In this document: positions 46,602 through 64,000 of the stretch, piece after piece
How positions within the stretch are numbered: position 1 is the stretch's first letter
Layout of the letters: each line of letters opens with the position of its first letter
From: Rhodanobacteraceae bacterium
Lineage (GTDB): Bacteria; Pseudomonadota; Gammaproteobacteria; Xanthomonadales; Rhodanobacteraceae
NCBI GenBank assembly: GCA_027019085.1
Contig: JALUXG010000049.1
Location: 1 to 64,000 of the forward strand
Direction: 5' to 3'
DNA: 64,000 bases
The notes under the pieces: generated by a model
Databases searched by the model: none
Seen by the model: only the letters and a program-made list of their open reading frames with translations
What the model was told of the DNA's origin: nothing
Made by a program: the position numbers and the translations under genes

Positions 46602-49600
46602 GCTTCAATGAGGCCGGGGCAAAATGCCCCGGATAACACGCTCGCCGCGTCTGCTCACGAGGCTGTAGATGGCATCGCTTCAATGAGGCCGGGGCAAAAT
46701 GCCCCGGATAACGCCAGCGTCGGCATCGACACCCGAAGCCACGCGCGGCTTCAATGAGGCCGGGGCAAAATGCCCCGGATAACAACGCATCGCTCAAGAC
46801 GCTGTGCTGGAAGATCGGCGGCTTCAATGAGGCCGGGGCAAAATGCCCCGGATAACCACGGCTGCGCCGCCTGGATGACGAGGTAGCTGGGGGCTTCAAT
46901 GAGGCCGGGGCAAAATGCCCCGGATAACATCTAGGAATATCATGCACTTGCGGCATTTTCCTCTGCTTCAATGAGGCCGGGGCAAAATGCCCCGGATAAC
47001 ACCCAAGCCGCACGCGAGCACGCGCGCGCCAAGCAGGCTTCAATGAGGCCGGGGCAAAATGCCCCGGATAACGAAACCCCCCGTTTTCGTAATCGACGAA
47101 AACGACAGCTTCAATGAGGCCGGGGCAAAATGCCCCGGATAACGCTAACGCGGTCAAAAAGAAAGTAAAGAAAGTTAATGCTTCAATGAGGCCGGGGCAA
47201 AATGCCCCGGATAACAAGCTGACAAGCAGTCGAAGAAATAAGCTGGCAAATCGCTTCAATGAGGCCGGGGCAAAATGCCCCGGATAACGCCGGATTTGAG
47301 TCAGGCGCGTACAGCACATCGACAGGGCTTCAATGAGGCCGGGGCAAAATGCCCCGGATAACCCACGGTACAGGCGGTTGCTCGAATCAACGTACCCAGC
47401 TTCAATGAGGCCGGGGCAAAATGCCCCGGATAACGGCCAGTCCGCATCAAGATGGAGCTTTTCCCTGCGGAGCTTCAATGAGGCCGGGGCAAAATGCCCC
47501 GGATAACTGCCCCCGTGCCAACGAGCGCCCTTGCTCCTCCAAGGCTTCAATGAGGCCGGGGCAAAATGCCCCGGATAACAGGTAGGCAAGCGATGGCAAG
47601 CGATGGCAAGCAGTCAGCTTCAATGAGGCCGGGGCAAAATGCCCCGGATAACCACCGTACAGGGCGGCGCGCCTTTCAGCAATCGCCGCCGGCTTCAATG
47701 AGGCCGGGGCAAAATGCCCCGGATAACGTTTAGGCACCCCGACCGCGAACAGCGCAATCGGACTGCTTCAATGAGGCCGGGGCAAAATGCCCCGGATAAC
47801 CGACCTCAAGGGACTGGAGCATAGCTCGCCCGACGGCGCTTCAATGAGGCCGGGGCAAAATGCCCCGGATAACGGCGCTGATGATCTGGGGCTCGACGCG
47901 GAAGACGAGCTTCAATGAGGCCGGGGCAAAATGCCCCGGATAACACTTGAGTTGCTGTTGTCCGAAATCGAATCTAAGAGGCTTCAATGAGGCCGGGGCA
48001 AAATGCCCCGGATAACCCGACATGCTAATCAAAGGGTCGTACGGAATCGTGGCTTCAATGAGGCCGGGGCAAAATGCCCCGGATAACCTCCTCGTGCCAC
48101 GGGGACGCGTCTGGAGCGAATGCGCTTCAATGAGGCCGGGGCAAAATGCCCCGGATAACCTGAATAAACCTTGCCCAGTCTGCATTGCTCTGTGGTGCTT
48201 CAATGAGGCCGGGGCAAAATGCCCCGGATAACTTCCACTCGCTGCGCGTCTTGCGGACGACGTGGCCGACGCTTCAATGAGGCCGGGGCAAAATGCCCCG
48301 GATAACAAAGACCAACTCGGCGCGGGAGCAAAGCGTGCGCAGGCTTCAATGAGGCCGGGGCAAAATGCCCCGGATAACACGAACTGCCAAGCATTGGCGA
48401 GCGCGGGAATGCGGCGCTTCAATGAGGCCGGGGCAAAATGCCCCGGATAACTGGATCGCCTTCAAAACGAGTTGCGAAAAGCGCTCGTGCTTCAATGAGG
48501 CCGGGGCAAAATGCCCCGGATAACGCACTCATGGAGAGCGAAAGTCCGAAGCCAACAGCTGGCTTCAATGAGGCCGGGGCAAAATGCCCCGGATAACACA
48601 CACTACGGTTCACGCTAGACAAAAAAGGCAAGGCTTCAATGAGGCCGGGGCAAAATGCCCCGGATAACTGCGATCGGCCTGAGTCTTGGCCGGGTACGTA
48701 TCCAGGCTTCAATGAGGCCGGGGCAAAATGCCCCGGATAACTTCGAGCGCCTTGTGCTCATCTACTCCGGCTCGGTTGGCTTCAATGAGGCCGGGGCAAA
48801 ATGCCCCGGATAACGTAATCGATCGCGTGCCATTCCCGTCCCACGCGCTGCATGCTTCAATGAGGCCGGGGCAAAATGCCCCGGATAACGCGAACGATGC
48901 GGTGTACGCTCGGGCCAAAGCAGCCGCTTCAATGAGGCCGGGGCAAAATGCCCCGGATAACGCAGCACTCAGCAGTGCGTCATGCGACAATCTCTCGTGC
49001 TTCAATGAGGCCGGGGCAAAATGCCCCGGATAACGGTCTGGGACTTTGGCGGGTGTTTTGTCGCTCATGGCGCTTCAATGAGGCCGGGGCAAAATGCCCC
49101 GGATAACCAGCCCCTGGCAAGATCGTCGAGAACGAGCCGATTGAGGCTTCAATGAGGCCGGGGCAAAATGCCCCGGATAACTTCCGAGGAACCTTTCTTT
49201 TGCGGTTTGCTATCGGTAGCTTCAATGAGGCCGGGGCAAAATGCCCCGGATAACTGCGATGCTATTACTTATTCAATGAAAGTTTAATCGCTTCAATGAG
49301 GCCGGGGCAAAATGCCCCGGATAACCATATCATTTATATCTTTCTCTTTAATCTTTTCCGGGCTTCAATGAGGCCGGGGCAAAATGCCCCGGATAACTGA
49401 GCTGAGGGCGTTGAAGAAAGAGTCGATTGAATCGTGCTTCAATGAGGCCGGGGCAAAATGCCCCGGATAACAGCTGGCCTATGTAGCGGCCCGCATAGGT
49501 GTATCCGCTTCAATGAGGCCGGGGCAAAATGCCCCGGATAACTTCGCTTGGGAATGGGAATCAGACCAGATTGGCGGGCTTCAATGAGGCCGGGGCAAAA

Positions 49601-52080
49601 TGCCCCGGATAACCACCGGAACGCAGACAGGCGCAGTGCTGACAACCAGCTTCAATGAGGCCGGGGCAAAATGCCCCGGATAACATCCGGTGGACTGACA
49701 GATGATATCCGCGGTATGGCTGCTTCAATGAGGCCGGGGCAAAATGCCCCGGATAACGTTGCGTGGTATCGACGTAGGCACCGGACTCCTTGTCGCTTCA
49801 ATGAGGCCGGGGCAAAATGCCCCGGATAACACGACAGATCCATGCGCTGGGTCGAGGGGGAGGAATGCTTCAATGAGGCCGGGGCAAAATGCCCCGGATA
49901 ACGGACTCCAGCGGCTACCTTGTCGCCAACCGCCATGACCTGCTTCAATGAGGCCGGGGCAAAATGCCCCGGATAACAGAACTACGCGCAGCAGGCGGCA
50001 TCGGGGCAATACCTGCTTCAATGAGGCCGGGGCAAAATGCCCCGGATAACTCGTCCATGTGCGCGATCAGCACCACGTCCTTGCCGCTTCAATGAGGCCG
50101 GGGCAAAATGCCCCGGATAACGATATGAAACCGGGTGACGAACGGGAGCTATCATTATGCTTCAATGAGGCCGGGGCAAAATGCCCCGGATAACTCGCGT
50201 TGGGCCGGATTTGCTGAATCTGCGATAGCGCTTCAATGAGGCCGGGGCAAAATGCCCCGGATAACCCAAGGGATATCCATAGATGAACGGAACATAAACG
50301 CCCGCTTCAATGAGGCCGGGGCAAAATGCCCCGGATAACAGTGTGATGGGTCTAAAGGTCAAGCTGAAAGTCGATGGCGCTTCAATGAGGCCGGGGCAAA
50401 ATGCCCCGGATAACGGACCCAAAATGCGCCGGCTGCCAGTGCTACGAGCACGCTTCAATGAGGCCGGGGCAAAATGCCCCGGATAACTTGGACCATATTC
50501 CCGACGCCGGGAAATAGGTATGACGCTTCAATGAGGCCGGGGCAAAATGCCCCGGATAACGCGGTTTCTCCGTGGCGCTGAGTATGCCGTCATCGGGCTT
50601 CAATGAGGCCGGGGCAAAATGCCCCGGATAACGAACCGGACCAGTCCATGACAGAGGAACAGACATGAGGCTTCAATGAGGCCGGGGCAAAATGCCCCGG
50701 ATAACACGAATAGTCTGCCCTCCACGTCGATCTCGCGCCGGGCTTCAATGAGGCCGGGGCAAAATGCCCCGGATAACGGGGAGAAATGAACCCCATCACA
50801 GCCCAAATGAAGGCGCTTCAATGAGGCCGGGGCAAAATGCCCCGGATAACCGCGGCTGGTGCGATGCGGGTATCAGGACATGGTGCGAGCTTCAATGAGG
50901 CCGGGGCAAAATGCCCCGGATAACAGGATCTCACCGGACCGCATACCCGTCTCCAGAGCGCTTCAATGAGGCCGGGGCAAAATGCCCCGGATAACAGTGG
51001 ATGTTCGCGAACCTGGTCGATTACGCCAAGCTGCTTCAATGAGGCCGGGGCAAAATGCCCCGGATAACGGCTGCGGGCAGCCAAACACCTGGCCGCTCAC
51101 GCATGCTTCAATGAGGCCGGGGCAAAATGCCCCGGATAACACAATGCCTACTCGGTGAACAATGCGCGGCTTGGCGTGCTTCAATGAGGCCGGGGCAAAA
51201 TGCCCCGGATAACGAAATACAACGAAAGAAGCTTGAGCAGGGAAGCGCGGCTTCAATGAGGCCGGGGCAAAATGCCCCGGATAACCATATCCTTGCACGA
51301 AATGCAAGCCTACTTGCAAAAGCTTCAATGAGGCCGGGGCAAAATGCCCCGGATAACGCGCTAGAGTGCAAGGCCAAGCTCGACGCCATCCGGCTTCAAT
51401 GAGGCCGGGGCAAAATGCCCCGGATAACCTACCTTCGGCGCTTTGCTGGTCTCTTCGGCGGGCGCTTCAATGAGGCCGGGGCAAAATGCCCCGGATAACC
51501 ACCTACCAGGGCACCAACGATGACCAGCTACCCCAAGCTTCAATGAGGCCGGGGCAAAATGCCCCGGATAACAAAAAATATGTTGGACGAAAAAGAAATT
51601 AAAGAATTAGCTTCAATGAGGCCGGGGCAAAATGCCCCGGATAACTGAATGTTAGTTGTTGCTCCAGTGTTTGCTACAGCGTTGCTTCAATGAGGCCGGG
51701 GCAAAATGCCCCGGATAACTGCCTTAGCAACAGCGTTGCAATCACGTTCAATCTGGCTTCAATGAGGCCGGGGCAAAATGCCCCGGATAACTATGTACTG
51801 GTTGGGGTAAAAACGAAGATGAAGAAGCTTCAATGAGGCCGGGGCAAAATGCCCCGGATAACCTGTTTACGGGACATCACAAGTTACCTCCGTCGCAAGC
51901 TTCAATGAGGCCGGGGCAAAATGCCCCGGATAACTCTTGCAACCAGTATCAAGGTTCCGTATCAAACACTAGGCTTCAATGAGGCCGGGGCAAAATGCCC
52001 CGGATAACTCCGTCCCCATCAATATTTAGAGTTGGGGCAATAGTGCTTCAATGAGGCCGGGGCAAAATGCCCCGGATAAC
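46602..52080 (-). CRISPR. Type I-G (I-U) CRISPR array: 76 repeats of 36 bp, 75 spacers (35-39 nt); repeat (crRNA sense) GTTATCCGGGGCATTTTGCCCCGGCCTCATTGAAGC
   Basis: Hand-enumerated repeats of GCTTCAATGAGGCCGGGGCAAAATGCCCCGGATAAC on +, start-to-start 71-75 bp. Orientation inferred from the ATTGAAGC 3' handle and adjacency to cas2/leader at the right end. Confidence 0.98.
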
Positions 52081-52318: not shown

Positions 52319-52609
52319 TTACACAATAATGGGTTCACGAGCCACGGGCTCGAACTTTTCGCCCAGGCTGACTACGCGGGGCTTGACCTTGTCGGCCTGC
52401 CCAAGATCGATGACCAGCAATGCATCGACCCGTCGGTTCAGAATCTCGTCCAGCATCTGTATCAGTTCGGCATGTCGTCGACGGCTGAGCCGGCACTGGA
52501 AGACGGAAAGCTGCAGCCACTCGCCGTAGCCTTTCATCAACTTGAACGCGCGGCGCCAGCGTTTGGGTTCACGGATGTCGTAGGTCACCAGATACAGATG
52601 TTCGTTCAT
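52319..52609 (-). CDS. cas2: CRISPR-associated endonuclease Cas2
   Basis: MNEHLYLVTYDIREPKRWRRAFKLMKGYGEWLQLSVFQCRLS: typical Cas2. Confidence 0.96.
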   Translation of the reverse strand: MNEHLYLVTYDIREPKRWRRAFKLMKGYGEWLQLSVFQCRLSRRRHAELIQMLDEILNRRVDALLVIDLGQADKVKPRVVSLGEKFEPVAREPIIV

Positions 52610-52634: not shown

Positions 52635-54353
52635 TCAGCGCGTGGTGAAATGGGGGAATTCGTCCAGTTCGCCCAGCAGAAAGCGTCCCAGCAGTCGGGC
52701 TTGCAGTTCAAGCAGACGCCGATAGCTCAGCCGGTATCCAAACAGGGGGTGAGTGACTTCCTGGCTGAGGCGCCGCTCGAAAGCCGCAATGAAGCGCTTA
52801 CGGCCGCTACCGGTCAGGTTGACGCTGCCCGCGGCACTGACGAAATCGCTTGGATGCACTTCACCATTGTTGATGACCTGCATCACTACCGAGTCGGCGA
52901 GCAACGGACGGAAGGGTTCCATCATGTCCAGTGCCAGGGCCGGTCGGCCGTAGCGGGGCTGGTGGTAGAAACCACGGAACGGATCAAAGCCGACGGCCTG
53001 CAGGGTGACGCTCCAGGTGCGCGCAAGCATGGTGTAGGCAAACGACAGCATGGCGTTGACCGGGTCGGTGGGGGGACGCCGGTTGCGTTGACTGAAATCG
53101 AAAGCGAGCAAGCCTTCGTCTTCGGGCGTTGCCGATTTGAGCGCATGGCGGAAGTTGCCGAAGTACTGCGCAGCCGCATGGCCCTCGATGCCGAGCAGGA
53201 TTTCCAGGTTTTCCGCATGCTCGGCCTGCGTGCGGATGCGCTTGAGATCCTGCATCAGCCGCTGGGGCTTTTCATCCGGCTTCCAGTTGCGGCGCAACTG
53301 GGTGCGGCTGTTGGCGATCTTGGCAGCGACCAGCCCGCGCGCAATGCGCAAACATGTCGCGTCATGGAAACTGGCCCGGTATTGCGCGGTGCGCAACTCG
53401 ACGTTCTTGTGTCCGTTGCCGATGCTGTGGCCGAAGAAAAATCCACCGTAGCTGTGCCAGGTGACGGGGATGCCGCGTTGCATCAGTTCGTGCAGGCATG
53501 GCGTGGTGATGTAGACGTTGCCCATGACCACCACCTGCGAGACTTCGATCAGCCGTGCCGTCGCGAGTACCTCATCGTTCTTGCTGACTTCCAGCACTTC
53601 GCCTTTCTTGGACAGCTTGGCGTTGTACTGCTGGATGTACAGCGGCAGTGCTTCGTCATGCGGAACCGCCAGAGGCCGCGGAGAAAGTTCATTCTGGTGC
53701 AGGTACTGCACTTCGTCGGGAAGGCAGATCGTGACCAGAGAACAACGGGGGCATTTGGGGCTGTCGACCAGCGGCTCCGGAATCCGTCCTCCCGCGGCCA
53801 TGGCGCGAAGTTCGGCGATGGCATTGCGGGTCAGTCCGAGCAGTTCATCGTCGAAGGGTACGCTCACACGCTCCTTGCTGGCCACGTAGTATATGGCGCC
53901 TTCCTCGCACGTGTACCCGTGCTCGCGCAGCAACAGCCCCTGTGCGCACAGCTGGACTCGTTCCGGGTCGTACACGCCGCGCGCGATGTGCGGACGCTTG
54001 CCGCGCTTGTAATCCACGGGTGTGACGGTACCGCCTTCGCCTTCGATCAGGTCGAGTCTGGCGATCAGGCCAAGCCGGTTGGAGGAGAGCGTGACGGAGC
54101 GGGCATGAATCTCGGTACGATCCTTTTCGGCCTGATCCGCATCCGGCAGGTCGCCGGAAGGCTTGTCCACGCGCTTGTGACGGTGCCGTCCTTCGACGGT
54201 GTCGGCCGAATCGGCCCATTCGCCCTGCACCCATTCCAGATAGGCAAGGCGGGGGCAATACACATGCTCGTTGAGCATGCGCACAGGAATCGGCGGCTGG
54301 TCACCGCTGAGGTCTGGGAAAGGAAGCTCCAGGTCCCCCTGTTTCGGCTCCAT
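52635..54353 (-). CDS. cas4-cas1: Cas4-Cas1 fusion protein (type I-G/I-U)
   Basis: N-terminal Cas4: 'LNEHVYCPRLAYLEW', 'PVDYKRGKRP', 'CPRCSLVTICLPDE'; C-terminal Cas1: 'NAMLSFAYTMLARTWSVTLQAVGFDPFRGFYHQPRYGRPALALDMMEPFRPLLAD'. Confidence 0.96.
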   Translation of the reverse strand: MEPKQGDLELPFPDLSGDQPPIPVRMLNEHVYCPRLAYLEWVQGEWADSADTVEGRHRHKRVDKPSGDLPDADQAEKDRTEIHARSVTLSSNRLGLIARLDLIEGEGGTVTPVDYKRGKRPHIARGVYDPERVQLCAQGLLLREHGYTCEEGAIYYVASKERVSVPFDDELLGLTRNAIAELRAMAAGGRIPEPLVDSPKCPRCSLVTICLPDEVQYLHQNELSPRPLAVPHDEALPLYIQQYNAKLSKKGEVLEVSKNDEVLATARLIEVSQVVVMGNVYITTPCLHELMQRGIPVTWHSYGGFFFGHSIGNGHKNVELRTAQYRASFHDATCLRIARGLVAAKIANSRTQLRRNWKPDEKPQRLMQDLKRIRTQAEHAENLEILLGIEGHAAAQYFGNFRHALKSATPEDEGLLAFDFSQRNRRPPTDPVNAMLSFAYTMLARTWSVTLQAVGFDPFRGFYHQPRYGRPALALDMMEPFRPLLADSVVMQVINNGEVHPSDFVSAAGSVNLTGSGRKRFIAAFERRLSQEVTHPLFGYRLSYRRLLELQARLLGRFLLGELDEFPHFTTR

Positions 54354-54469: not shown

Positions 54470-55942
54470 TTATCTCGATTCGCTATCGGCCTGATCCAGA
54501 CCCAGCTCGCGGTAAAGGTCGTCCAGAAGGGTCTTGTCAACGGGTACGCGTCCGTCCTGACCGTCGCGTTCGATCTTTTGCAGAAGTGCGCTTACCTGTT
54601 CGCGGCCATCAGCGATGCGAACGGCCTGTCGCGGCGTGCGCCCATTCAAGGCGGGCAGCGCGGTATCAAGCCACGTACGGTAGTGGCGCTGCAAATAGTC
54701 GGATATCAGCGCTTGCGCCTCCGGATCATCTTGCTGGCCACGTTCGGTGGCGTGAGAGGTTTCCGGTTTACGATCAGCCAGTGCCTGCTCGACCGTGCTC
54801 ACCTCGTCAAGGCGGAAGCTAGCGTGAGTTCCCAGTATCTGACCGATGATGTCGGTAAGCGCATCGGCGCGTTCGCGGGAATTGACCTCGCCAATCAGCT
54901 TGCCGTCGTCGATCTGCAGGGTGCCCATCACCGTGTGCGATCCGGATTCACTTGCGTCGTTTCCAAGCCAATCGAATCGTGCGCGCCGCAGCTTGCCGTT
55001 GGCGGTGTGTTCGACAGTTTCGTGCAGCAGATGCAGGCCCAGCGCCTGCGCATCTGAGTCTTCGAGCAGGCCGAAGACGTCCATGGGCGAGTCGATGCCG
55101 AACACCAATTTGTGAAATTCAAACATCTCGCCATCAGAGTTTTGCAACTGCGGGAGCTGGGGATACAGCAATCGATGGGATAGATCCAGGTACAGTTCGC
55201 GCATCTCGATGTCCCACATCTGCACGATGGCGTCTTGGTCATCGGTATCGGTCTGGTCCTCGGCCGCACGCATTCGTTTGCGTAAATGGATGATGGCGAT
55301 TTTGTCGTCCGGCGGGATCACGACCGGGCTGGTGGCTTCGAGCAGGGTAATGCCTTGCGCGCAGGCAAGTTGCCCGAAAAGGGCATCATGCACCTGCAGG
55401 CTCTGCGAGGCGCTACGCTCAAGCACTTCATGCGATTGGCCGGTCAACAGGTTGCGCAAAGTAAAGCCCTGTCCCGGAATGCAATGCGTCACTTCATAAA
55501 AGCTGAACGGTTGTACGAGACATGATTGCAGGTATTCACGTGCCACGGTGGAAAGCCTGGAACCCTTGCTCTCGAGATAGGCACGTGTAGGTGGAATGCC
55601 GTGCAATGCCGAGTCCGCGACCCCGGTCTCGTCCGGGTTGGGCGCCCAGTGGTGGAACATCCAGGGCATGAATACGGGAATATGCGGTGTGTCCGGATCG
55701 AAGGGCGTTTCGGCTTCGTCCCAAAGCGTGAATTCCTCCCACGCTTCATCAACCGCCTCGGGGCCGTAAAGTTGCGTCATGAATCGCAGCATCCGCGTTG
55801 GATGGCCTTCGAGTTCGCGACGGATGCGTCGCCAGGCCAGCTCCTCGGGAGGGTTTGCCTGCGTCTGTTCGACAGCGAGACAGCACTGCTTGTACTTTTT
55901 TCCACTGCCGCAGGGGCAGGGGTCGTTGCGACCGGGTTTCAT
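54470..55942 (-). CDS. SEC-C zinc-motif protein encoded inside the cas operon
   Basis: N-terminal 'MKPGRNDPCPCGSGKKYKQCC' SEC-C motif; C-terminal 'HYRTWLDTALPALNGRTPRQAVR'. Confidence 0.85.
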   Translation of the reverse strand: MKPGRNDPCPCGSGKKYKQCCLAVEQTQANPPEELAWRRIRRELEGHPTRMLRFMTQLYGPEAVDEAWEEFTLWDEAETPFDPDTPHIPVFMPWMFHHWAPNPDETGVADSALHGIPPTRAYLESKGSRLSTVAREYLQSCLVQPFSFYEVTHCIPGQGFTLRNLLTGQSHEVLERSASQSLQVHDALFGQLACAQGITLLEATSPVVIPPDDKIAIIHLRKRMRAAEDQTDTDDQDAIVQMWDIEMRELYLDLSHRLLYPQLPQLQNSDGEMFEFHKLVFGIDSPMDVFGLLEDSDAQALGLHLLHETVEHTANGKLRRARFDWLGNDASESGSHTVMGTLQIDDGKLIGEVNSRERADALTDIIGQILGTHASFRLDEVSTVEQALADRKPETSHATERGQQDDPEAQALISDYLQRHYRTWLDTALPALNGRTPRQAVRIADGREQVSALLQKIERDGQDGRVPVDKTLLDDLYRELGLDQADSESR

Positions 55943-56011
55943 GGTGTCATTGTCCTGGTGACGCCGGCATAAACGCAAGTTGGCCATGCGTCTGCGGGAT
56001 ATCCTGACGCT

Positions 56012-56698
56012 TCATGCGATTGCGTAGCATGCCGGCGACTCCTTGACCGTCCAACGCAGTTTGCGGGCGATACCGGGGCCGATGCCGTCGACTTGCGCCA
56101 ACGTATCCGCATCGGCGGCGATAACGGCTTCGATACTGCCGAAGCGCCGGAGCAGGCGTGACGCGCGAGTGGGGCCGATGCCCGGCAACCCCTGCAGAAC
56201 ATGCGACTGCAAGGCGGCCTTGCCCCTGGGGCGGCGGCCATGCCGCGGCAACGCGCCGCTGGCGATGGCAACTCGCTGCCGTGCTGCCGAGCACAGCGTA
56301 CGCACCGTCTCGTGCGCGTTCCGCGTGCGCAATAGCGGTACGCCGATGAACAACGCAACGTTCAGCAACGCGCCCTGGATGGCCTCGGCGTGCATGCCGC
56401 TGGAGGCCAGGTCACGACCGGTTCCCTCGAGAATCAATGCCGCCGGGAGTCTTGCATTCACCAGCCGCAACGCCTGGTTGAACAACCTGCCGTCCTTGAT
56501 CGACGCCACCAGGTCAGGCAGCGTTTTGCGTTCGAACAGCAATGCGTCGTCGATACAGTAATCACCGACGGACAGTCGCCGCACATCGATATGGAATAGG
56601 CCGCACGTCTCAAGTGCGTCGGGCACGGGACCACGGCATTCACGATCGTCGATGACCATGCTTGGCCGGGCCACGGGTTTGTCGTTCGGGGAATGCAT
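56012..56698 (-). CDS. ERCC4/XPF-type nuclease with tandem helix-hairpin-helix
   Basis: 'VIDDRECRGPV..LSVGDYCIDDALLFERKTLPDLVASIKDGRLFNQALRL' (ERKxxxD motif) and HhH 'LQGLPGIGPTRASRLLRRFGSIEAVIAADADTLAQVDGIGPGIARKL'. Confidence 0.92.
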   Translation of the reverse strand: MHSPNDKPVARPSMVIDDRECRGPVPDALETCGLFHIDVRRLSVGDYCIDDALLFERKTLPDLVASIKDGRLFNQALRLVNARLPAALILEGTGRDLASSGMHAEAIQGALLNVALFIGVPLLRTRNAHETVRTLCSAARQRVAIASGALPRHGRRPRGKAALQSHVLQGLPGIGPTRASRLLRRFGSIEAVIAADADTLAQVDGIGPGIARKLRWTVKESPACYAIA

Positions 56699-57145
56699 TC
56701 AGCGCTCTTTGCCGCCACGGTGCCGGAACGGGTCGAGTACCTGCACCGTGGTGTCCTTGAAATGCCTGGTATTGCGCGTCACGACCGTCAGGTCATGAAT
56801 CAGGGCCGTGGCGGCGATCAGTTTGTCCAGCGCATTCTCCGGGTGTGGGGTACACAGGCGTCCCCAGGTTTGGGCGATGTCGGCATCGATGTCGAGGATG
56901 TGATCACCAAAATCATCGATGATGCGGTTCAACCATTTTTCAAGCCGTTTCGCCTGCGGCAAGTCCCCGCGATGACGGATCCGTTCCACGCCACGCCGCA
57001 GCTCGCCCACGGTGATGACGGAGAGGAAGGCATCGGAGCGCGAGGATGTCAGGTCGGCAAAAAAGCGTTGTACGCCGGGATGGGCACGCCGTCCCTTGCG
57101 GGCTTCGCTGATGATATTGGTATCAATCAAATACATCGCGGACAT
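56699..57145 (-). CDS. PIN-domain toxin (VapC/FitB-like)
   Basis: 'MYLIDTNIISEARKGRRAHPGVQRFF..SVITVGELRRGVER..PENALDKLIAATALIHDLTVVTRNTRHF'. Confidence 0.92.
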   Translation of the reverse strand: MSAMYLIDTNIISEARKGRRAHPGVQRFFADLTSSRSDAFLSVITVGELRRGVERIRHRGDLPQAKRLEKWLNRIIDDFGDHILDIDADIAQTWGRLCTPHPENALDKLIAATALIHDLTVVTRNTRHFKDTTVQVLDPFRHRGGKER

Positions 57146-57356
57146 CCGTGTCCTGTACCCGATCGAAATCCGTGTCGGTACCTACGTCGGGCATGGATGC
57201 AAGCACGCTGGCCAGGCTCTTGCGGCGGGTTTTCATCAAGGCCTCCTCCAGGATCGCCCGGTGCTCCGCCTCTGCGCTGCGTGCATGCCTGCCCGCCTGT
57301 TTCTTGAGCTTGCGGACCAGCTCTTCATCAAGATTGCGCACGATCAGGTTGGCCAT
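57123..57356 (-). CDS. RHH-type antitoxin (VapB/FitA-like)
   Basis: 'MANLIVRNLDEELVRKLKKQAGRHARSAEAEHRAILEEAL' FitA/RHH N-terminus; overlaps the toxin gene. Confidence 0.92.
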   Translation of the reverse strand: MANLIVRNLDEELVRKLKKQAGRHARSAEAEHRAILEEALMKTRRKSLASVLASMPDVGTDTDFDRVQDTDVRDVFD

Positions 57357-57436
57357 GTGTGAGCATTCCGTGTTTGACCAAGTTGATATCAATGATATCA
57401 CATTGCTTTGCACGCACGTCATGAAGATCAAGTGCG

Positions 57437-58948
57437 CTACTTGTCGCCGAACACACCTGCGTCACGCTGACGCGGCAAGAACAGTCCAAGACCGAAGTGG
57501 CAGGCAAAACCAAGCGCCAGTGGGCCTTCAACCAGTTCGGGGAAGGTCAGGCGCCAGAAGCTGCCGAGGCGGTCGGGTTGTGTGACACCGCGGCGGAGAC
57601 GGAAGCGTTTGAAGTGGATTGAGCTGCGCTTGCGGTTTTTGCCGACATCCACTTCAACGAAGGATTCCAGCGCGACAGGCTCGGGCAAGCCGCGTTCACG
57701 GCATTCGCGGCGGATCTGGTCTTCGACACTAAAACGTTTTTTGAAGTGCCAGGGGTGCAGGTAAGGCGTAACCGAATCCCAGGTGAGGCTTTTCCACATC
57801 AAGACGCCGCCTGTTTCGATCCCACCTATGCCTTCCAGTGCCAGCCGCCATTCGCCGCCGTCGCGACTCCAGATCCGGTTCAGGCTTTCCAGTACCCGTT
57901 GTTGTGGCATGTCCATGCCGTCCGGTACGTGTATCAGGAGTCGATCGATCATGCCGTCTCCATTGCTGTCCCAGGGAAGGTAAAAGGCATGGCGGTGCCG
58001 GTTGCCCGCGGGCAGGTCGTGGCCAGAAAAGTTCGGGGGAATTTGGTCTTCCCCCAGAACCTTCCGGGATCGGCTCATGACGGCGCTACGCATCAGCTCG
58101 CCGATGCGCAGGCTGTCTTCCACACGCGGCAGCGGTTTGCCGGCGAGAATGAAGCTGGCGGTTGTGGCCCCGGGAACATGGGTCTTGTGAATGATCCGCC
58201 GAGGTTTCAACGCATCGACTGGACGCAGGTAACTCACCTTGCGTACGGCGGGGGGTTGGTTCCAGCCTTGCTTGCGAAGGTCGGCGGTGTCTACGGACAG
58301 CGCATCGAGCAAATTGTCAGGCAAGGTTTTCCCAAGTTTTTTCTCGGCTTTCTTGTCAGGCAGGAAACCTTCTCGCAGTTTTTCGTATTCGTCCGATGCG
58401 TAGGGTACGTACAGGGTCACTTTCTCACCGTGCAACTCGCCCGTCGTCGTGTCGAGTGCATCGGTGCCCGGTTTGCAATTGGATTCAGATGCCTTGGTGA
58501 TGCGTTGGGCCTCCACCCAGGATTCGGCGCGGCCAAGGTAGCCCAGGACAGCCAGTAGGTCATCGAGCAGCTTGCGTTGATCGTCGGGCAGTACCAGAGT
58601 TGGCCAGACCACGACCAGCGGATCGTCGCGCCCGACGGCTGCGAAGGCGTCGAAGATCAGCGAGGTCTTGTTAGCCGCGAACTGCGGCATGTAATGGCGC
58701 GTATGGCTGTGACTGGCCGCCGGTAGGCGGTACTCGGGCAGCTCCTCGGCCAGCGATTCAATCAGGCCCAGCATGGTGGACTCGTCATGCTTGCCGGCAG
58801 GCTTGATCTTGTGATGCCAGGTGGCGATGAGCGCGCGCAGGATGCGCCACGGTTCGGGCGGCCAGGCCACAGCGCCCTCGTTGACGTGCCGATCCCAGGG
58901 TGTGGCGTGATAGCGCCCGGCGGGAAAGGTGAAGGACAGCGCGAGCAT
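57437..58948 (-). CDS. csb2: Type I-G Cas5-Cas6-like protein Csb2
   Basis: 'LALSFTFPAGRYHATPWDRHVNEGAVAWPPEPWRILRALIATWH' Csb2 N-terminus; synteny with csb1/csx17. Confidence 0.93.
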   Translation of the reverse strand: MLALSFTFPAGRYHATPWDRHVNEGAVAWPPEPWRILRALIATWHHKIKPAGKHDESTMLGLIESLAEELPEYRLPAASHSHTRHYMPQFAANKTSLIFDAFAAVGRDDPLVVVWPTLVLPDDQRKLLDDLLAVLGYLGRAESWVEAQRITKASESNCKPGTDALDTTTGELHGEKVTLYVPYASDEYEKLREGFLPDKKAEKKLGKTLPDNLLDALSVDTADLRKQGWNQPPAVRKVSYLRPVDALKPRRIIHKTHVPGATTASFILAGKPLPRVEDSLRIGELMRSAVMSRSRKVLGEDQIPPNFSGHDLPAGNRHRHAFYLPWDSNGDGMIDRLLIHVPDGMDMPQQRVLESLNRIWSRDGGEWRLALEGIGGIETGGVLMWKSLTWDSVTPYLHPWHFKKRFSVEDQIRRECRERGLPEPVALESFVEVDVGKNRKRSSIHFKRFRLRRGVTQPDRLGSFWRLTFPELVEGPLALGFACHFGLGLFLPRQRDAGVFGDK

Positions 58949-58951
58949 GGT

Positions 58952-62119
<3,168 letters not shown>

Positions 62120-62127
<8 letters not shown>

Positions 62128-64000
62128 GGTCGTCTCCTTGCTGCTCGGCTGCGGAGGCCCGCCAATCGGCCAGGCGCACCAGGGTTTCCAGCCAGGCCAG
62201 TTGAAATGGACCGTGTTCATCGAGCAGTTTGAGGGTGCGTTCGGTCCAGGACGGCCCCTGCTCGCCTTCGCCGATTTCCATCAGCGCCAGCTTCAGGGCG
62301 GTCTGGGCACTTTGTTCACCATCGAAGTCGAGCGCGGGCAGTACGTCGCCTTCCCACACGCCACGGGCGAAACGTTTGACTCCTGAAGCCGCTTCTTCGG
62401 TGGGCATGGCGCGCAGGCTCATGCGCACCTTGCCGTGGTGAGCGGCGATCAGGTAGGCGATGAGGTCGGCATCGGGCTCGCCGTCGTGCTGGGCCAGCCA
62501 ACCGAGCATGGAGGCCAATTCATGGCGGAAGAAGGGTCGGCTGTGGCGTGCTTTGCAAGGGGACTTGGCCAAGAACCCCTGCGGTGCCTGTTCGCAGGCG
62601 TGCATGGTGGCATCGAAAATCTCATGCGCCTTGCCGAGGTCGTGCCAGCGTGCGGCGCGGACCACGCTGGCGCTGTGCGTGGTTTCCTCAAGCGCTTTGC
62701 AGAGTGCCCCGGCTTGCGCGGCCACGTGACCAAGGTGGGCAGGCAATGCCACGGGCTTGTTCTGCCGTGAGCCCCAATCCTCCCCATACGCGTCCTGTCG
62801 TTCTGATGCCGCCACCGTGACGAGTGGCACTTTCGGTTTTTTGATGGTGGCATCGAAGCCGAGGTGTTCGACGTAACCGCCATCGGCGGCGCGCAGCATC
62901 AGCGTCATGCCAGGATGCGGCTCGTGGTCGAGTTTCATCCACTGTCCGTTGCGTTTCTTGTCGCCGAGCGTGTCCCAGTACCATGCGCCGCGTTTATGGA
63001 GACCTCTGGCCTGGCCCATGGATATGGGGCAGAGTTCGGCGCGATCCGGCCTGCCCTCGGGCTTGCCGTCGGCTGCGGATTGATTGGGGTCATCCTTGAA
63101 ATCACGCCAGAACACCTGCACGCCGGGGTTACCGGTGTCGCGGATGTAGTCGGACACGTCCACATCGAAACCGGACAAATCAGGATCCGTATTGAACAGA
63201 TCGAGCAGATCCTTGCGACGCAGAACAGCGGTGAGTTGACGCGCCTCATCAGTGGCTGGAAGGTCTCGAGGACTGGCGCTGGAGAGGCCGGCCAGCTTGT
63301 TGCGTGCGTTCGTCAGCAAGTCTGACGTGTAGGGCAAGGCATCGGCATCGACCGCGATGTCCACCCAGAAGATGCGGGCACCCTCCGTGTTGTATTCGCC
63401 GTAGCGGTTGCAGCGCCCGAAGCGCTGTACCAGAGAAGGCCAGGGCGCAAGTTCGGTCACCAGGGTTTTCGATGAGATGTCCACACCGGCCTCGATGGCC
63501 TGGGTGGCGACGATGATGCGGTCTGGAACATTCTTTTCGCCCAGGTGACGCGCTTGTTCGGCACGCTCGGCGGCACGGAAGCGGGCATGAATCAGGAGAT
63601 CGGCCCGGTTCGGACGTTGTTTACGCAGAAGGTGAAAGAGCTGCTGTGCCCGCCCGACATGGTTGACGATGACCAGCGTCTGCGCCGTCTCGTCGTGGGC
63701 CTCCAGTACCCAATCGGCAAGGTCTTGCAGATAGGTCTGCAATCCTTGCTTGTTGCCCGCCTCTTTGGATAGGGAAAAGCGAGCTTTGGCCAGCGATTTC
63801 ACTGCCTGCAAGCGAGCCGCTGCCTGCTCGCGGTCCTGTTCGCCGAGACCATGCGTCGCCAGGGATTCGAGATGGGTGTGCATGTCCACCGTATCCAGCC
63901 AATCACGGTTCAGAGTGGCCGATATCCACAGGGTGCGGCTGTTTTTCGCCAAGGGAAAACTTCGTCGGAAGGCTTCGAGTTGTGCCGAGGTGGTGAGCCC
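62120..64000 (-). CDS. cas3: Cas3 helicase-nuclease (N-terminus outside the window), HD domain C-terminal to helicase
   Basis: Helicase motifs 'LWISATL', 'VATQAIEAGVDISSKTLVTELAPWPSLVQRFGRCNRYGE'; then HD 'ARWHDLGKAHEIF', 'HELASMLGWL', 'AAHHGKVRMS', 'LADWRASAAEQ'. Frame open to the edge. Confidence 0.94.

Follow-up and report, generated by a model that had tools for sequence, protein, structure and literature searches.

The gene at positions 56012 to 56698 of the window, by which we mean the whole 64,000-nucleotide stretch of Rhodanobacteraceae DNA analyzed, encodes on the minus strand a 228-aa standalone ERCC4 + (HhH)2 nuclease. Judged by comparison of its sequence with those of its relatives, the protein is a real but rare CRISPR-linked nuclease that crosses subtypes (I-G and I-F), and its family, its intact active site, the CRISPR linkage of its own clade and the purifying selection acting on it are all demonstrated at this level. 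The reading that we favor, with a probability of roughly 0.45, is that type I CRISPR systems (I-G and I-F) of a small proteobacterial lineage have as an accessory protein a standalone structure-specific endonuclease of the XPF/Hef type, which most likely would act in the acquisition phase. Relative to the literature searched, what is new here is the type I-F connection, the clade and the counts of linkage; the gene itself had already been noted (PMC9638904).

Domains, active site and selection

A single minus-strand ORF matches the interval exactly, with the ATG at 56698 and the stop at 56012; the earlier note had given no strand, and a plus-strand reading was ruled out, its frame being interrupted by stops. 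Pfam placed the ERCC4 nuclease domain at residues 16 to 137 (56288 to 56653, minus strand; E = 1.6e-21, 77 bits against a curated cut-off of 24), with a whole-genome match at the same coordinates, and the tandem helix-hairpin-helix (HhH)2 DNA-binding module at the C terminus, residues 168 to 215 (56054 to 56197, minus strand; HHH_5, E = 5.7e-12; HHH_2, E = 4e-10). The top NCBIfam stretch was the C-terminal nuclease and HhH part of archaeal Hef (NF010337, E = 6e-44), followed by archaeal Xpf (7e-22), both scores lying below the whole-protein cut-offs (for Hef, 150 versus 610 bits), and the top PDB match was the Aeropyrum XPF structure 2bgw (E = 8e-28, residues 7 to 215). A helicase was absent from the 228 residues, in which the Pfam and NCBIfam scan gave ERCC4 and HhH domains only. 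A structure prediction made from two sequences only reached a pLDDT of 46.8, too low to be relied on. A chance origin of the ERCC4 match is excluded, no non-ERCC4 family was assigned, and the product is confirmed by its domain matches as a complete standalone XPF/Hef-type ERCC4 nuclease with (HhH)2 and without a helicase; the same description in the earlier note was borne out by Pfam, NCBIfam and 2bgw alike.

The short form of archaeal XPF (Aeropyrum, PDB 2bgw/2bhn) likewise joins ERCC4 to (HhH)2 and is helicase-free, whereas the window nuclease is bacterial and lies within a CRISPR operon. Archaeal XPF is regarded as a repair factor. Hef, whose C-terminal nuclease (1j22, 1x2i) provided the best NCBIfam stretch, differs by its N-terminal SF2 helicase, which the window nuclease lacks. 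The "ERCC4 domain-containing proteins" of Pseudomonas megaplasmids and of PRTRC-bearing plasmids are also standalone ERCC4 + HhH proteins of similar length, but are ~30% identical, fall on another tree branch, and showed no CRISPR array over the regions inspected.

The GDXn-ERK-X3-D motif of the ERCC4 family is intact (G45-D46, E56-R57-K58, and D62) and forms the catalytic motif GDYCIDDALLFERKTLPD at residues 45 to 62 (56513 to 56566, minus strand), the catalytic residues of which are conserved in homologs. The protein thereby carries GDY..ERKTLPD, and the DDRE quoted in the earlier note is present as IDDRECRG. No variation at D46, E56, K58, and D62 was observed across 17 homologs, whereas a lack of such conservation would, according to the earlier note, have refuted its assignment; GDY, FERKTL, and D62 were invariant among the four members of the CRISPR-linked clade described below. 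The dN/dS ratio of the nuclease between clade members was 0.14 to 0.23 in pairs with unsaturated synonymous sites, and between the window and its relative G169 it was 0.15 for the nuclease, 0.10 for cas4/1, and 0.29 for the SEC-C gene, values that are rough because synonymous divergence is high. These ratios show purifying selection on the predicted enzyme.

The type I-G operon and the CRISPR-linked clade

All genes of the operon lie on the minus strand in the order cas3, csx17, cas7, csb2, vapB, vapC, ERCC4-HhH, SEC-C, cas4/1, and cas2, followed by the array. The earlier placement of the gene inside a type I-G operon was upheld by NCBIfam models of the neighbors, all above cut-offs, namely, csx17/cas8g (59962 to 62220; TIGR04113), csb1/cas7g (58952 to 59932; TIGR02570), csb2, the cas5-cas6 of type I-G (57437 to 58948; TIGR02165), and the type I-G cas4-cas1 fusion (52635 to 54353; NF049935, 834 bits). 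The 820-aa cas3g (62120 to 64000, extending past the window to contig position 64582) was assigned by position and motifs, and the start of cas2 (52319 to 52609; PF09827) was picked by homology inside a longer ORF. The repeat search located a CRISPR array of ~76 to 77 repeats with a ~73-nt period at 46602 to 52080. Upstream of the nuclease lie a FitA/VapB-like ribbon-helix-helix antitoxin (57123 to 57431, likely start ~57356; PF22513, E = 8e-16) and a VapC-type PIN toxin (56699 to 57145; PF01850, E = 5e-15), whose stop the nuclease ATG abuts with zero gap (TGA-ATG). Downstream lies a SEC-C protein (54470 to 55987, 505 aa as listed, likely start MKPGRND at ~55942) with a weak Xre/MbcA/ParS C-terminal domain.

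By eye, the Cas4 motifs of the window appear intact and Cas3 shows recognizable HD-type motifs, and the nuclease as a substitute for a broken Cas4 or Cas3 was rejected on that basis. The palindrome TGATATCATTGATATCA at 57384 to 57400, which shortly precedes the likely vapB start, is a candidate operator, and it is possible that it also controls the nuclease and the downstream adaptation genes. Outside the window, ~425 nt upstream of cas3, the contig carries a gene for a second ERCC4 protein of 365 aa with the ERCC4 domain in mid-protein (contig 65007 to 66104; L004:5007-6104); it was rejected as a system component, as its 61 to 67% identical homologs in other genomes of the host family lie away from cas genes with little common context.

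In the legend of its Fig. 1, a 2022 paper (PMC9638904) mentions an uncharacterized xpf-like gene (WP_012638991.1) of Thioalkalivibrio sulfidiphilus, which lies in a type I-G locus where csb2 and cas4-1 enclose it along with two toxin-antitoxin pairs. It shares with the window gene the csb2/cas4-1 position, the kind of protein and the toxin-antitoxin company, and differs in that there are two such pairs and the legend mentions no SEC-C protein; the two genes are likened by description, and their orthology is assumed. Besides this paper, none tying ERCC4 or XPF to CRISPR loci was found in the open-licence literature searched. The earlier note knew of no canonical Cas protein of this type in I-G; the gene is an accessory one and not core, and an xpf-like gene at this position was already on record.

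The window nuclease forms one clade (support 98/95) with the proteins of G169, G168, and G747, which are 73%, 68%, and 57% identical to it, respectively, all four coming from draft or metagenome assemblies. The clade loci are all CRISPR loci, three of type I-G and one of type I-F, and a simple array search found arrays at 4/4 of them versus 0/22 more distant ERCC4 loci examined, one of which has a three-copy short repeat and nothing longer. Among about a thousand genomes surveyed, no clade member was found away from a CRISPR locus. As to the earlier proviso that orthologs should not sit mostly away from cas genes, the close ones (at least 57% identity) are all at CRISPR loci, whereas the wider ERCC4 family is located elsewhere. 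The linkage represents about two to three independent cases, because common inheritance of a single block may account for two of the I-G cases. Since its closest relatives also adjoin CRISPR arrays, the nuclease appears to be an uncommon auxiliary enzyme of CRISPR systems.

The G169 locus is of type I-G with an effector set differing from that of the window (TIGR02570 and TIGR02165 homologs, cas3g, and a Cas3-adjacent protein) and keeps the window order ERCC4, SEC-C, cas4/1, and cas2, with an antisense PIN gene between SEC-C and cas4/1. The G747 locus, from another family of the order, is also of type I-G (csb2, a 207-aa protein, a TPR protein, ERCC4, a cas4/1 remnant, cas2, and the array); the remnant (L139:5270-5488) covers residues 5 to 77 only, cas2 follows close behind, and the nuclease ORF is still open. 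This seems to be an I-G locus from which the integrase gene was lost while the nuclease was retained, unless it reflects an error of assembly. In the Rhodanobacter MAG G168, the nuclease lies on the same strand ~140 to 170 nt past the last repeat of a 146-repeat type I-F array, far from cas1, with the I-F genes csy4, csy3, csy1, cas3f, and cas1f identified by NCBIfam and an internally deleted SEC-C relative directly upstream of cas1f. The idea of this locus (L003) as a plain defense island was dropped, its supposed ORFs being the 146-repeat I-F array. SEC-C and the nuclease are immediate neighbors in two loci, the L015 copy of SEC-C being 65% identical to that of the window, and SEC-C proteins with a weak Xre/MbcA/ParS-like end recur near or beside cas1 in I-G loci and, in the internally deleted form, beside the I-F cas1f (window 54470-55987, L015:10793-12274, L116:10202-11659, and L128:11633-12687).

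The frequency of the gene was determined in samples of one genome per species. ERCC4 genes occurred in 11/234 genomes of the host family, 13/369 of the class sample, 9/399 of the order sample, and 2/328 of a neighboring family, and most of them belong to other ERCC4 families. Type I-G cas4/1 fusions over the cut-off were present in 15/234 host-family and 14/369 class-sample genomes, and the nuclease adjoined cas4/1 in 2 of these 15 (the window's and G169) and 1 of these 14 (the window's only), which makes it an accessory gene. It is not a core I-G component, and most I-G loci are without it. The co-occurrence with cas4-cas1 fusions raised by the earlier note was found, but at few I-G loci, and the nuclease is not tied to the fusions, since it is also present at a type I-F locus. 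A viral origin was rejected, as viral contigs gave one 27% relative and nothing closer, and phage records gave distant matches only, mostly to archaeal viruses.

Acquisition and alternative roles

By analogy with its family, the nuclease would act as a dimer via ERCC4 and (HhH)2 and, at duplex junctions, would cut the strand from which a single-stranded 3' branch extends (3' flap or fork). Most likely, its place would be in the acquisition phase, on forked or 3'-overhang DNA from prespacer preparation or on half-integrated spacers needing resolution. It appears to move together with the adaptation genes, because the window and G169 keep it with SEC-C and cas4/1 despite differing effectors, and its presence in a Cas4-less subtype (I-F) also counts for this role; prespacer processing was likewise proposed for the Thioalkalivibrio gene by its authors (PMC9638904). 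Counting against it are the absence of the nuclease from most I-G loci, its open frame in G747 with cas4/1 almost wholly deleted, and its position at the array end, distant from cas1, in the I-F locus of G168. An I-G Cas4/1 fusion alone cuts both prespacer ends in vitro (PMC10274657), and since the Cas4 motifs of the window also look intact, a trimming role may be redundant. The more specific proposal of a branch-cutting XPF-type accessory Cas protein common to the unrelated I-G and I-F systems and performing a defined acquisition step, such as half-site resolution, is a tentative one that we consider rather doubtful.

The clean-up of branched spacer-integration intermediates and the prespacer-trimming nucleases of Cas4-less systems are still partly open questions, and the mechanism of PAM cleavage in the latter has been called unclear (PMC10274657). 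An XPF-type enzyme common to a Cas4 system (I-G) and a Cas4-less system (I-F) is a concrete candidate for knock-out and assay.

The nuclease lies beside two different type I effector modules, both R-loop makers, and could act in interference by cutting R-loops or Cas3-made flaps to speed target destruction. ERCC4 enzymes cut junctions of this kind. We consider such help improbable in view of the recognizable HD-type motifs of the window Cas3, the company that the nuclease keeps with SEC-C and cas4/1 in the window genome (G000) and G169 while effector sets differ, and the efficient interference by the reconstituted Thioalkalivibrio I-G Cascade with Cas3 (PMC9638904).

Similarly improbable is a role in array or genome maintenance, in which the nuclease would work in the manner of archaeal Hef at stalled forks and resolve forks or hairpins held up where repeat arrays are long and palindromic. 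Long adjacent arrays in two cases (76 and 146 repeats), the I-F copy abutting the array rather than cas1, and the best NCBIfam match to Hef-type C termini are consistent with it, but relatives without the nuclease have I-G arrays of 70 to 85 repeats or more. An association with unusually long arrays was rejected on the same ground, as these relatives match the array length of the window.

The gap between csb2 and cas4/1

The spacing of csb2 and cas4/1 varies among other I-G loci, from <200 nt up to several kb. The gap there is occupied by toxin-antitoxin pairs, a SEC-C protein, TPR proteins, or an AlbA-like ATPase, several of which were recognized by eye. Because it also gathers unrelated toxin-antitoxin pairs, position alone is weak evidence for the acquisition role. 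The nuclease may instead be a passenger, a mobile defense or repair gene that settled in this effector-adaptation gap and beside an I-F array and does no work in CRISPR immunity. We regard this as unlikely but worth keeping, mainly because of the variable length and contents of the gap; the other neighbors of the nuclease in G168 are defense genes as well (IetA/IetS-like and a UvrD helicase related to GajB), and wider-family relatives occur on megaplasmids and chromosomes with no CRISPR nearby. Against it, the CRISPR-linked copies form a single clade, encountered nowhere else in the survey, which is under purifying selection and has members in two CRISPR subtypes and in two families, whereas a plain passenger would be expected in other defense islands too. 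Even as a passenger, the nuclease would point to the space between the I-G modules as a site where cargo collects.

Toxin-antitoxin pairs of varied kinds recur in the gap (window 56699-57431; L067, L068, L075, and L111), partly as judged by eye. In the I-G locus of G101 (L121:6094-11751), an ORF of 1885 aa with an M48-peptidase/TerB-type look by eye lies between the Cas3-adjacent protein and cas4/1.
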